A stretch of 64,000 nucleotides of DNA, taken from assembly GCA_029882975.1 (NCBI GenBank), contig JAOUJW010000005.1, positions 124,001 to 188,000 on the forward strand, in the 5' to 3' direction. Positions within the stretch are counted from its first letter, which is position 1; the number at the start of each line of letters is the position of its first letter. This document shows, piece after piece, positions 27,185 through 34,718 of the stretch. Origin of the DNA: Gammaproteobacteria bacterium (lineage in GTDB: Bacteria; Pseudomonadota; Gammaproteobacteria; SZUA-152). The notes below the pieces were generated by a model. The model searched no databases and had not been told where the DNA came from. It was given only the letters and a program-made list of their open reading frames with translations. The position numbers and the translations under genes are program-made.

Positions 27185-28054
27185 TTATCCAGGAATATAA
27201 ATGCCGGCGGCCCGTATGGCTCGAACAATTTGTGCTGTGGAATGCTCCAGGGTTTTTAAAGCGGATTCGTAGTCGCCTTTATCAGCAAGTTGTTGTGCCT
27301 CTTGTTTTAATTGTTCAGACATCTGCAACGGTTTTTCCATCAGTTTGACAAATTTGGGATCCTTGAGTTTTTCTGTTAATAAAATGTCCACTAAGACCCG
27401 ATGCGTCTTATTTCTATTCACTTCATAGCGATACTCTTCTTCTACATTGGCGAAATGAAGTTCCCGCACCAAAGTTTCACCGTCACGCAGGCCTTTGATC
27501 GTTAGCTTTATCGACAAATAGGCTTTTTCTATAGTAGAAATGGCTTCATCCATGCGCCCTGATTTCACCAGATCCTGAGACTGTTTCAGGCTGTCCTTGG
27601 CGCGTTGTTCCACATCACGAGTGTGTTTTTGAGATTTCTTTTGAGTACTTACTTCATGTAAAGCACCAAGCAAGGCATTAACGCTTTTGTGTAGATGGTC
27701 GTATTTCCTTTGCTTCCCGTTTTTAACCACACCGTTACCCACCAAGCGTATCGCGGCAAAAAACTGTCGCTTGGCCTGAGTTAACTTTTCTTTGGCGGTA
27801 TTGCTGTCACCCTTTTGATGTGCCGCTTTCGCCTGTTGCAACAAGTCCAGGGCTTTTTTCTGTTCTTCTTTAGCTTCTGCACTATGACTGGAATTGACTT
27901 TTTTTGCAGATACTGAGTCTACAAGCAAACGCTCAGTGGCTTCAATGGAGTTACCCAAATTGTCTGCTGCAACATTGGTTACGCCCACCAGTAACACAAG
28001 CAGAATAAAACCTTTTAAGCAATCATATGCCTGCATCCAGGCCGGTTTTTGCAT
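27185..28054 (-). CDS. Periplasmic helical (TPR-like) protein linked to cytochromes
   Basis: 289 residues. N-terminal hydrophobic signal (about 13-31, cut near AAD), then alternating charged helices with two tandem segments of helical-repeat type (about 60-110 and 150-190, QKKALDLLQQAKAAHQKGD; KSGRMDEAISTIEKAYLSI). Start codon overlaps the stop of the upstream cytochrome gene (TGATG), so translation is coupled. I do not recognise a named family. Likely a periplasmic partner or scaffold of the two triheme proteins. Confidence 0.7.
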   Translation of the reverse strand: MQKPAWMQAYDCLKGFILLVLLVGVTNVAADNLGNSIEATERLLVDSVSAKKVNSSHSAEAKEEQKKALDLLQQAKAAHQKGDSNTAKEKLTQAKRQFFAAIRLVGNGVVKNGKQRKYDHLHKSVNALLGALHEVSTQKKSQKHTRDVEQRAKDSLKQSQDLVKSGRMDEAISTIEKAYLSIKLTIKGLRDGETLVRELHFANVEEEYRYEVNRNKTHRVLVDILLTEKLKDPKFVKLMEKPLQMSEQLKQEAQQLADKGDYESALKTLEHSTAQIVRAIRAAGIYIPG

Positions 28055-28665
28055 CAGCGTTTCTTGTTAGGTTTTTTTGTCGATTTTTTTACGGCCTTTT
28101 TATTTACCGAATGACAACGTCGGCACTCGGTTACCGGAAATGCCACAGAACCGTGACACACCCCGCATTTTTGCCCCAGCATAATCTCCGCCATACTCAT
28201 GGGATTAGCGCCTTTCTTTGGGATAAAAATATCGGTATGGCAGTTGGCACATTCCAATAATTGCGTGTGGGTTTTGTGCGGAAATGATACGTCCGGCATC
28301 GTACCTTTGACTTGCATTTCTATATGTAAGTCCATAGGTAGAGCTTGTTCGGATTCGTCCAAATGATTATATTTAGGTGTAAATTTTTTCTTATCCTGGG
28401 ACTTTACCCAATCCACGGCATTCCCGGACCTGCCTTTGACTAAAGGTTTGAATGCATCTTTTGGCTCCTGCAACATGGATAATCCGGGGTTTTCCTTATC
28501 ATGAATACCATCATTTTTCAGGCTGTCGATGTTTTTTCCGGGTGGCTTGAAAATTCGATTGAATTGGTTGGGGTCATCCGCAGCCCACGCAGTACTACAA
28601 AATAGTACACCCAAACCAATACCGTATGTGATTGCTAACGTCCGCTTCTTCATTGACATAGTCAT
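28054..28665 (-). CDS. Triheme c7-type cytochrome, second of two
   Basis: 203 residues. Signal peptide (to about AWA, residue 28), a 100-residue region without heme sites, then three CxxCH heme sites: Cys139-His143, Cys167-His171 and Cys181-His185. FPHKTHT before the first site supplies extra His residues (130 and 133) for bis-His ligation, as in cytochrome c7/c3. Lys-rich C terminus (KKAVKKSTKKPNKKR) could dock to an acidic partner. It should carry electrons in the periplasm. Follows the first triheme gene after 32 bases. Confidence 0.88.
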   Translation of the reverse strand: MTMSMKKRTLAITYGIGLGVLFCSTAWAADDPNQFNRIFKPPGKNIDSLKNDGIHDKENPGLSMLQEPKDAFKPLVKGRSGNAVDWVKSQDKKKFTPKYNHLDESEQALPMDLHIEMQVKGTMPDVSFPHKTHTQLLECANCHTDIFIPKKGANPMSMAEIMLGQKCGVCHGSVAFPVTECRRCHSVNKKAVKKSTKKPNKKR

Positions 28666-28697
28666 ACTCTTGTGTGGAGTTTTAGAGTTCTTTTCAG

Positions 28698-29108
28698 TTA
28701 TTTTTTGGTTTTGTTTTCCAGCGGTGACATGAGTAACTCTAAAGTACTCTTATGCGCCTTCGTAGGAGTGCCGGGTTTGGCTGAGTGACACAAATCACAG
28801 TTTTCAGTCGCCCAGGCAATTTCGCCGTTATGGCACGCGCCGCATTGTTCGCCGTTCACGATATTCAGCATATTGATATCACTGCCGCCGGCTTTGAATT
28901 TGAAACCCAGATTGCTGTGGCAAGCTTTACATGCGTAGCGAATTCTATGAAACCAGTGTGGAAAAATCACCGGCCTGACTCCGGTTTGGTCTGAATAGTT
29001 ATTGAGCACAATATCTCCGTACTCTGCATATGCCACATTTTGTGTAGAAGATGCGGCCATGACTACTAAACCGGCAAATAGCATAAAAAACAAACGAGCC
29101 TGCTTCAT
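28698..29108 (-). CDS. Triheme c7-type cytochrome, first of two
   Basis: 136 residues from the ATG at 29108, preferred over the longer frame because AAAAGGAAACAAG precedes it and a signal peptide starts there (cut near AYA, residue 28). Three heme sites: Cys60-His64, Cys89-His93, Cys104-His108; FPHWFH at 49-54 gives distal ligands. First gene of a three-gene unit ending in the helical protein. No terminal reductase, quinol oxidase or NapC-type gene is adjacent, so its redox partners are unknown. Confidence 0.88.
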   Translation of the reverse strand: MKQARLFFMLFAGLVVMAASSTQNVAYAEYGDIVLNNYSDQTGVRPVIFPHWFHRIRYACKACHSNLGFKFKAGGSDINMLNIVNGEQCGACHNGEIAWATENCDLCHSAKPGTPTKAHKSTLELLMSPLENKTKK

Positions 29109-29408
29109 CTTGTTTCCTTTTATTGTGCAGTACACTGTCAAGAAAGATCAGCTTTGAAGTGGCATTTTCCTCTTTTGAACAAAAGAATCAAGCACAGCAG
29201 CACAACAAGATACCTCAAGTTTGCTCTACGTCAATTACTCTGCGGAACAATTTGCCAAACGGTATTAAATGCGTTCTTATTTTCAGGCCACATAATTAAC
29301 CCACGCTTTACATTGTTTTTACAGATGGCAGAAAAAAACCTCTAATATTTTTTGTTTCGTGGACGAAAAGCAATTCAGCAGCAGCAATAAATTCAGGTAG
29401 AAGCAGTA
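29109..29408. other. Divergent intergenic region, cytochromes/hemerythrin
   Basis: 300 bp between the divergent cytochrome operon and hemerythrin gene. A 7-bp inverted repeat, TCTTTTG-AA-CAAAAGA (29171-29186), stands 63 bases upstream of the cytochrome start and could be an operator. No gene is supported. Confidence 0.4.
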
Positions 29409-33603: not shown

Positions 33604-33655
33604 GTCCCTCTATTTATATATGGTAATGACACGACTCCTTGACGGGGTGTCTATC

Positions 33656-34211
33656 CAGGTAAGTTTGGGTTTATTTGCGATACTATCAAGGAAAAGATGG
33701 TGCCCGGGGCCGGAGTCGACAATTCTGTCTGGAACAGAATTGGACGCACGCAGTGCGCCCGAAGGGTGCAAACCAGGGATGGTTTGCATCCACCGGCACG
33801 AATCCGTGACGGTTCGTTTTTCCAAGTAAGACTAAGTTGGGTTTGTGTTCGGTCTATAAGGGGAAAGATGGTGCCCGGGGCCGGAGTCGACAATTCTGTC
33901 TGGAACAGAATTGGACGCACGCAGTGCGCCCGAAGGGTTCAAACCAGGGATGGTTTGCATCCACCGGCACGAATCCGTGACGGTTCGTCTTTCCAGGTAA
34001 GACTAAGTTGGGTTTGTGTTCGGTCTATAAGGGGAAAGATGGTGCCCGGGGCCGGAGTCGACAATTCTGTCTGGAACAGAATTGGACGCACGCAGTGCGC
34101 CCGAAGGGTGCAAACCAGGGATGGTTTGCATCCACCGGCACGAATCCGTGACGGTTCGTCTTTCCAGGTAAGACTAAGTTGGGTTTGTGTTCGGTCTATA
34201 AGGGGAAAGAT
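33656..34211 (-). repeat. Three 171-bp tandem repeats of the tRNA-Leu 3' end, plus a degenerate fragment
   Basis: Three near-identical units begin at 33699, 33870 and 34041, each exactly 171 bp, ending at the tRNA-Leu gene where the same motif occurs a fourth time (34212). Each unit carries a 21-bp exact copy of the 3' end of tRNA-Leu including CCA (for example 33699-33719). A shorter, diverged piece (33656-33698) closes the array on the far side. Units differ by only a few bases, such as a G-to-T at about 33939 in the middle unit. Read in the tRNA direction each unit holds four consecutive stem-loops. The plan is the same as that of the E. coli tyrT spacer repeats, known to yield rtT RNA. 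Confidence 0.93.
33699..33869 (-). ncRNA. Candidate structured RNA unit (rtT-like), distal copy
   Basis: Inferred RNA of one repeat unit, co-transcribed with tRNA-Leu. Predicted stems on the minus strand: ACCG.CACG/CGTG.CGGT; TGCAAACC/GGTTTGCA; an 8-bp stem GGGCGCAC/GTGCGTCC with a 3-base loop; and CAATTCTGT/ACAGAATTG, followed by the tRNA-like 3' end. The two other copies are at 33870-34040 and 34041-34211. Processing by tRNA enzymes at the CCA-like end is plausible but unproven. Confidence 0.45.
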
Positions 34212-34298
34212 GGTGCCCGGGGCCGGAGTCGAACCGGCACGGATTATTCATCCGAGGGATTTTAAGTCCCTTGCGTCTACCAATTTCGCCACCCGGGC
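34211..34298 (-). tRNA. leuZ: tRNA-Leu (anticodon UAA)
   Basis: 88 nt with encoded CCA. Acceptor GCCCGGG/CCCGGGC with discriminator A, anticodon loop CTTAAAA with UAA, a long type-II variable arm, and T loop GGTTCGACTCC. Third of the three tRNA genes after pgsA, as leuZ is in E. coli. Its 3' 21 bases are repeated downstream. Confidence 0.96.
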
Positions 34299-34441
34299 TA
34301 CGAAGGAGTGGCATTATAACCACTTTGATTTTATTTTGGAAATGGGGAATTTTGCAAAAGCTTCACTGACGCCCGTGTGAACCACAAAACCAAACCAAGT
34401 CGCCGGTATTTTCCACAGGGGGTAACAGGGTGGGAAGAATT

Positions 34442-34515
34442 TGGAGGCCGGTGGCGGAGTCGAACCGCCCTCCAAGGATTTGCAATCCTCTGCCTAACCG
34501 CTTGGCTAACCGGCC
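34442..34515 (-). tRNA. cysT: tRNA-Cys (anticodon GCA)
   Basis: 74 nt with encoded CCA. Acceptor GGCCGGT/ACCGGCC, discriminator U, anticodon loop TTGCAAA with GCA. Middle gene of the Gly-Cys-Leu cluster. Confidence 0.96.
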
Positions 34516-34642
34516 GTAGTAACAAAATCCTGACTTTGCAGGCCGCTGCATAGTCACTCGGCCGTTATAGGTCGTCGGACAGGGATATGGTAAGTCCCAA
34601 CTGCTGCATTCCGCTTTAACCGCTTGAATGAGCAAGGAAAAT

Positions 34643-34718
<76 letters not shown>

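Follow-up and report, generated by a model that had tools for sequence, protein, structure and literature searches.

The closest described counterpart of the locus studied here is the set of tandem repeats at tyrT-tyrV of E. coli K-12, represented in Rfam by RtT (RF00391). A role in the stringent response has been proposed for RtT, and to our knowledge the origin of the tyrT repeats has stayed unexplained since their discovery. The four E. coli copies read GGATGAGAAGC...AAGGTTCGA, followed by hairpins, TAATCC and the tail. RtT-family matches at tRNA genes have been annotated as expressed small RNAs and read as regulatory in Actinobacillus and Thioalkalivibrio (PMC4986893, PMC8092127), and the 3′ETS of the E. 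coli operon glyW-cysT-leuZ is an sRNA sponge that pairs with RyhB (PMC6191717). Among small palindromic elements, the CGTC-tagged REPs are single 8-9-bp stem-loops with a 4-5-nt loop and a length of 20-40 bp, as described in the accessible part of Di Nocera et al. 2013 (PMC3733652), and the GTAG REPs and REPtrons, which are associated with the IS200/IS605-like RAYT, place hairpin DNA beside a short fixed tetranucleotide.

A tandem array behind tRNA-Leu(UAA)

The window, a stretch of 64,000 nucleotides from a Gammaproteobacteria bacterium (contig JAOUJW010000005.1), has on its minus strand, at 34211-34718, an operon of tRNA-Gly, tRNA-Cys and tRNA-Leu(UAA), adjoining pgsA and uvrC, with a sigma-70-like promoter (TTGACA-16-TAGAAT, 34764-34737) upstream of tRNA-Gly. 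The same tRNA order beside pgsA-uvrC is found at E. coli leuZ, and the sequence of interest occupies the same place directly behind the last tRNA; in this comparison, made by position only, E. coli has a short, terminated 3′ ETS as its spacer where the window has a repeat array. No obvious terminator was seen between tRNA-Leu and the array, and the gene beyond the array encodes a sensor kinase. Along the tRNA strand, the features are as follows, with bit scores from the covariance models R1 and R3 described below.

34643..34718, minus strand: tRNA-Gly(GCC), first gene of the operon (ARAGORN, Rfam)
34442..34515, minus strand: tRNA-Cys(GCA) (ARAGORN, Rfam)
34211..34298, minus strand: tRNA-Leu(UAA), intact; its T-loop-to-CCA portion, 34211-34232, is tail copy 1 of 4 (ARAGORN, Rfam, sequence comparison)
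34151..34210, minus strand: unit 1 spacer (sequence)
34134..34150, minus strand: unit 1 left tRNA-Leu fragment CACGGATTCGTGCCGGT (direct sequence comparison)
34062..34133, minus strand: unit 1 three-hairpin element, GGATG...AATTG (R1, R3)
34040..34061, minus strand: unit 1 tRNA-Leu tail, TCGACTCC...CCA (sequence)
33980..34039, minus strand: unit 2 spacer (sequence)
33963..33979, minus strand: unit 2 left tRNA fragment (sequence)
33891..33962, minus strand: unit 2 element (R1 95.5 bits; R3 77.7 bits)
33869..33890, minus strand: unit 2 tRNA tail (sequence)
33809..33868, minus strand: unit 3 spacer (sequence)
33792..33808, minus strand: unit 3 left tRNA fragment (sequence)
33720..33791, minus strand: unit 3 element (R1 99.3 bits; R3 83.2 bits)
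33698..33719, minus strand: unit 3 tRNA tail (sequence)
33630..33697, minus strand: diverged spacer copy past the last tail (blastn, about 73% identity, E 7e-6)

TRF reported a single array at 33693-34232 with a period of 171, 3.2 copies and 98% matches, and the three full units (33698-33868, 33869-34039 and 34040-34210) differ pairwise at 1-3 of 171 positions (98-99% identity). The exact 171-base spacing and the near identity of the units, both reported by a first-pass annotation of the sequence, were thereby borne out, although its unit starts (33699, 33870, 34041 and 34212) proved to be off by one. That annotation had also correctly placed a tRNA-Leu tail including CCA in every unit, but gave it 21 bases; the tail common to tRNA-Leu and the units is 22 nt long (TCGACTCCGGCCCCGGGCACCA), and the exact match extends to 27 nt. 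What had been taken for a decayed fragment at the far end turned out to be the diverged spacer copy at 33630-33697 and not a decayed tRNA tail; it is probably the original sequence 3′ of tRNA-Leu.

Read along the tRNA strand, each unit runs from a 60-nt spacer through the tRNA fragment CACGGATTCGTGCCGGT and a 72-nt element to the tail TCGACTCCGGCCCCGGGCACCA. The left fragment, overlooked in the first-pass annotation together with the position of the element inside a split T-loop, matches in its last 9 nt the tRNA-Leu sequence up to the GGT of the T-loop. The intact tRNA-Leu reads ...CGTGCCGGT directly followed by TCGACTCC..., whereas in the unit the tRNA fragment ends with CGTGCCGGT, the 72-nt three-hairpin element follows, and the tRNA sequence resumes with TCGACTCC...CCA. 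The element thus sits in a partial duplicate of the tRNA, whose T-loop it splits at GGT^TCGA. An assembly artefact is an unlikely source of the array, because the copies, all on one contig, are distinguished by point changes, further loci exist in the same genome, and single-contig genomes show equivalent arrays.

The array folds strongly (z = −3.3), and a search of phage and plasmid collections with the unit gave no match. On the plus strand, an open reading frame of 227 aa (33697-34380) spans the array, within which the repeats read MVPGAGVDNSVWNRIGRTQ; since 171 is divisible by 3, the repeats leave its frame open, and it was set aside as a gene, being probably a spurious tRNA-antisense frame.

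A family of three-hairpin elements

When relatives were searched by BLAST with the 171-bp unit, a check that the first-pass annotation had proposed, the middle part of the unit was recovered at other loci, many of them beside other tRNA genes. Eleven element cores obtained in this way align as three hairpins, with two-sided compensatory changes in 19 of 26 pairs. Over 104 matches, such changes were found in 23 of the 26 pairs, and 91.8% of cells were paired, versus 29-43% with slid partners, in an alignment that was fitted to the covariance model and therefore favours structure. Across the family the element measures about 72-78 nt (72 nt in the window), begins with TGATG or GGATG and ends with TTG, directly followed by TCGA. 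Its loop and linker motifs CATCCCTGG, CCCTTCGGG and TTCCAG are conserved across unrelated genomes, and the third hairpin has CGTC(C) just before it and an 8-bp stem starting with AATT. Scarcity of G-U pairs was considered as a mark of pairing at the DNA level, not the RNA level, and dropped, since G-U pairs are just as scarce in the acceptor stems of the tRNAs at these loci.

Three covariance models were used, all with rough E-values: R1, whose training set includes unit 2 of the window; R2, trained on 34 tRNA-linked copies; and R3, whose training copies came from R1 searches only, without an RtT search and with both E. coli and the window left out. Unit 1 was matched by R1 at 34057-34133 (99.3 bits, E 4e-21) and by R3 with 83.2 bits, and the window copies together score 77.7-83.2 bits with R3.

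Genomic sites of the element

R1 detected the element in 57 of the 143 class genomes in the sample and in 15 of 24 genomes of the family; in a wider sample of 200 genomes from the phylum, which took in other classes, 45 were positive. The genome that contains the window has 13 copies at five loci, four of which lie beside intact tRNA genes.

Window array behind tRNA-Leu(UAA): three copies
After tRNA-Arg: two copies, spacing 176
tRNA-Ser(UGA): two copies
tRNA-Ser(GCU): one copy
Behind a tRNA-Phe-like 3′ fragment (L077): five head-to-tail copies, period about 77-78

Elsewhere, the hosts are tRNAs for Ser, Gln, Arg, Glu, Phe, Lys, Met, Asn, Val and Tyr as well as tmRNA, and both orientations occur. 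The tRNA-linked elements sit between T and TCGA of the T-loop in a partial duplicate of the neighbouring tRNA, following the junction rule GGT^TCGAnTCC on the same strand as the tRNA or GGAT^TCGAACC on the opposite strand; copies of tRNA-Ser also contained insertions at TCGA in the D-loop and in the anticodon loop (L079, L085). Altogether 49 of 115 R1 matches are tRNA-associated, a fraction that is no population estimate since the 115 loci are the top of ranked lists and not a random sample, and by our estimate about 1% of a genome lies within 300 bp of a tRNA. TCGA abuts the right end of the element in 38 of the 49 tRNA-associated copies versus 7 of the 66 others. About half of the copies are located away from tRNA genes, with other flanks.

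Most tRNA-linked copies lie on the strand opposite to the tRNA, whereas the window element shares the strand of the tRNA. Among 30 opposite-strand loci, 19 have a terminator-like hairpin that separates the element from the tRNA. At most loci the first element lies about 65-95 nt past the tRNA 3′ end, an oddly uniform distance. Upstream of opposite-strand elements we also noted an inverted copy of the local T-arm, GGATGAGAACC, in which TTCGA is changed to TGAGA (L086-L089, L092, L012 and, in E. coli, L097); this inverted copy with TGAGA recurs across unrelated genomes and tRNAs. At two loci (L096, L157), the element lies in the loop of an unrelated palindrome, GGTAACTTTT...AAAAGTTACC.

Copies of the element also occur in protein-coding genes: one lies in frame in a full-length DnaE that keeps all its Pfam domains (L220), and others lie in frame in PglZ and SNF2-helicase genes (L081). 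The latter locus (G158:C1:1265000-1275000) has nine copies within about 5 kb, most of them in frame in PglZ/SNF2-helicase genes of defence-island type, where they encode peptides like NLPGADLDSRQAGPEGAASRDG. Elements were found in open frames in 29 of 67 cases versus 275 of 372 control windows, which is no enrichment and indicates that coding insertions are tolerated and not favoured.

Tandem arrays are recurrent, with units of 140-217 bp (L078, L084-L089, L100), and where an array lies 3′ of a tRNA, each unit extends from one T-loop to the next. Multiplication of a single block of spacer, tRNA fragment, element and tail by recombination between tails would produce this layout. At the locus of the window itself, one relative (G012, L198) has a tRNA-Leu 3′ fragment behind the intact gene, without the element. 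In the other relatives whose sequence 3′ of tRNA-Leu could be read, the array was absent, and it is therefore specific to the lineage of the window.

In its way of working the element resembles the known small palindromic elements, from which it appears to be set apart by size, tag and target. Like the Rickettsia palindromic elements and the CGTC REPs, which according to the accessible part of PMC3733652 are short palindromes lying between genes and in frame within genes, DnaE included, with no dedicated transposase known, it combines intergenic with in-frame sites. The CGTC REPs described there consist of a single hairpin with a CGTC tag, whereas our element comprises three hairpins in about 72-78 nt and enters tRNA T-loops; the accessible part of the same paper makes no mention of tRNA-gene targets. 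With the GTAG REPs the element shares the arrangement of hairpin DNA beside a short fixed tetranucleotide, but this is TCGA, and no GTAG tag is present at its ends. No target duplication was seen at the tRNA junctions.

Relationship to RtT of E. coli

The covariance model of RF00391, against which the first-pass annotation had proposed to check the repeats, gave no match in the window, nor in the rest of its genome at E ≤ 0.01, and by the Rfam membership cut-off of 45 bits the window array is not a member of RF00391. In the class, the same model had matches in 32 of 143 genomes, 7 of them above the cut-off, at various tRNAs. R1 placed the four E. coli RtT copies at ranks 1, 2, 4 and 5 of its matches, with weak scores of at most 10.5 bits (best E 0.02), and since a 10.5-bit match was judged insufficient alone, the comparison was repeated with R2 and R3. 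R2 scored the E. coli copies at 35.6, 33.6, 32.0 and 24.8 bits, and R3 at 30.0, 28.3, 26.9 and 18.4 bits (E 9e-8 to 1e-4 for 2 kb), the next best match reaching 4.4. Moreover, at all 18 of the 18 loci matched by both RtT and R1, R1 and RtT match opposite strands, and the edge of the R1 match is 17-18 nt away from the 3′ end of RtT, as in E. coli. In view of the R2 and R3 scores and this constant register, the window repeats are homologous to RtT in sequence and structure, and on these sequence-based grounds E. coli RtT is a diverged form of the window's element. The likeness to the tyrT repeats proposed in the first-pass annotation is consequently stronger than it had claimed, in that the hairpin part is homologous and not merely similar in plan; its statement that no sequence resemblance existed was wrong, as R3 matches all four E. 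coli copies.

The two loci have in common the three-part hairpin core ending with TCGA(A), the split T-loop of a tRNA tail copy with the tail from T-loop to CCA beside the tRNA gene, and a tandem unit of comparable length (178 bp in E. coli by RtT coordinates, 171 in the window). They differ in the tRNA, which is Tyr in E. coli and Leu in the window, and in orientation: the E. coli layout is that of the opposite-strand members such as L088, and the copies carry an upstream inverted T-arm (GGATGAGAAGC), unlike the window, where the element is oriented with the tRNA strand.

Origin of the array

These findings make it likely that the array consists of three copies of a mobile palindromic three-hairpin element, belonging to the family of RtT and lodged in the T-loop of a tRNA duplicate. 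The 3′ part of tRNA-Leu and the downstream spacer would have been duplicated in tandem, leaving a non-functional tRNA fragment, as suggested by the tRNA fragment on the left of the element, the tail and the spacer copy at the far end; the partial tRNA-Leu duplicate without the element in the relative (L198) supports this duplication-first order. The element would then have inserted at T^TCGA in the T-loop of the fragment, with the intact tRNA unharmed; the T-loop junctions are seen directly, and from them we infer the act of insertion. Recombination between the 22-27-bp tRNA tails would finally have multiplied the block to three units, to which the 98-99% identity and the exact period point. 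The element would target hairpin loops, above all the T-loops of tRNA copies, and the copies in dnaE (L220), PglZ and helicase genes show a mobility-like spread. An enzyme encoded elsewhere than in the element probably moves or copies it in the form of folded single-stranded DNA. A Y1 (IS200/IS605-type) transposase was considered as the obvious mover; Y1 is somewhat commoner in element-bearing genomes (43 of 57 element-positive versus 51 of 86 element-negative genomes), but the association is weak and some bearers, G141 and G084, have no Y1; this comparison among the 143 class genomes revealed no transposase linkage. The weak Y1 association and the copies away from tRNA genes, with their other flanks, speak against the mobile-element account.

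The first-pass annotation had framed the repeats as either a selected RNA or an accident of tRNA 3′-end recombination. That processing of the operon transcript releases repeat RNAs selected for the stringent response or for sponging of sRNAs has in its favour the place of the array directly behind tRNA-Leu on the transcribed strand, with a promoter upstream and no obvious terminator between, the strong fold (z = −3.3) with covariation, the RyhB-pairing 3′ETS at the same operon position in E. coli (PMC6191717), and RtT matches reported as expressed in Actinobacillus and Thioalkalivibrio (PMC4986893, PMC8092127). However, the window element, oriented with the tRNA, is the reverse of E. coli RtT and of most tRNA-linked copies, so that the RNAs of the window element and of E. 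coli RtT would be complements. This free orientation, the terminator-like hairpins before the element at 19 of 30 opposite-strand loci and the copies inside coding genes disfavour a conserved RNA role, and the array is absent at the same locus in relatives; present evidence thus gives the selected-RNA alternative no support, and we regard it as unlikely. Under the mobile-element reading, the RNA released by tRNA processing would be a by-product, whether or not a lineage came to make use of it; some RtT-family copies may be functional, as published matches were annotated as expressed (PMC4986893, PMC8092127).

Pure recombination of tRNA 3′ ends, with the hairpins as ordinary local sequence, would account for the exact tail-to-tail period and the near-identical units, and the relative with a partial tRNA duplicate but no element (L198) is in line with it. 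It is contradicted as a complete account by a covarying hairpin part common to dozens of families, to different tRNAs and to E. coli RtT, and we hold it to be highly improbable; it survives only as the step that sets copy number by tail-to-tail recombination, the recurrence stemming from a common mobile element. The 3′ ends of tRNA genes are classic att sites, and the units might be stacked att sites at tRNA-Leu left by a tyrosine-recombinase island, an idea to which an integrase-like candidate ORF after tRNA-Leu in a relative (L190) lends something; yet no integrase lies beside the array, where the next gene is the sensor kinase, and att stacking predicts no 171-bp units with a conserved element that also occurs at D-loops, at anticodon loops and in genes, which makes such a remnant barely credible. 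It is equally hard to credit that template switching at tRNA hairpins creates the element anew each time without a mobile donor: the inverted T-arm copies GGATGAGAACC near many opposite-strand elements suggest hairpin-guided copying and no mobilising enzyme was found, but the occurrence of CATCCCTGG, CCCTTCGGG and TTCCAG in unrelated genomes requires common descent, and the protein-gene copies have no tRNA nearby.

As to the wider family, we lean modestly towards a previously unrecognised family of mobile three-hairpin DNA elements, spread over Pseudomonadota, that specialises in the T-loops and other TCGA loops of tRNA duplicates. E. coli RtT, with tpr, would be a surviving relic of such an element; it would then not have arisen at tyrT as a regulatory RNA peculiar to that locus. 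In the openly searchable literature we found no account of elements that target T-loops, nor any that treats RtT as such an element. Placing the tyrT repeats in a broad, structure-conserved element family would give a testable answer to their origin, and Rfam RtT matches would then be read as insertion marks in tRNA gene copies, for which a common regulatory function should not be assumed. The family would also show a route by which a cell's most conserved genes can be parasitised unbroken, by landing in a broken duplicate, and would widen the range of palindromic elements by a class that has no known transposase so far and enters essential genes such as dnaE in frame.

Some minor observations were made in addition. 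In the relative L190, a short ORF resembling the start of an integrase follows tRNA-Leu(UAA), and from this integrase-like look the end of tRNA-Leu(UAA) may also be used as an island attachment site. In the window, a 14-bp tandem repeat, GTTTCAATTAATGT, is present in 3.8 copies at 2269-2321, and two adjacent small secreted-looking proteins with several CxxCH haem motifs are encoded on the minus strand at 28054-29141.
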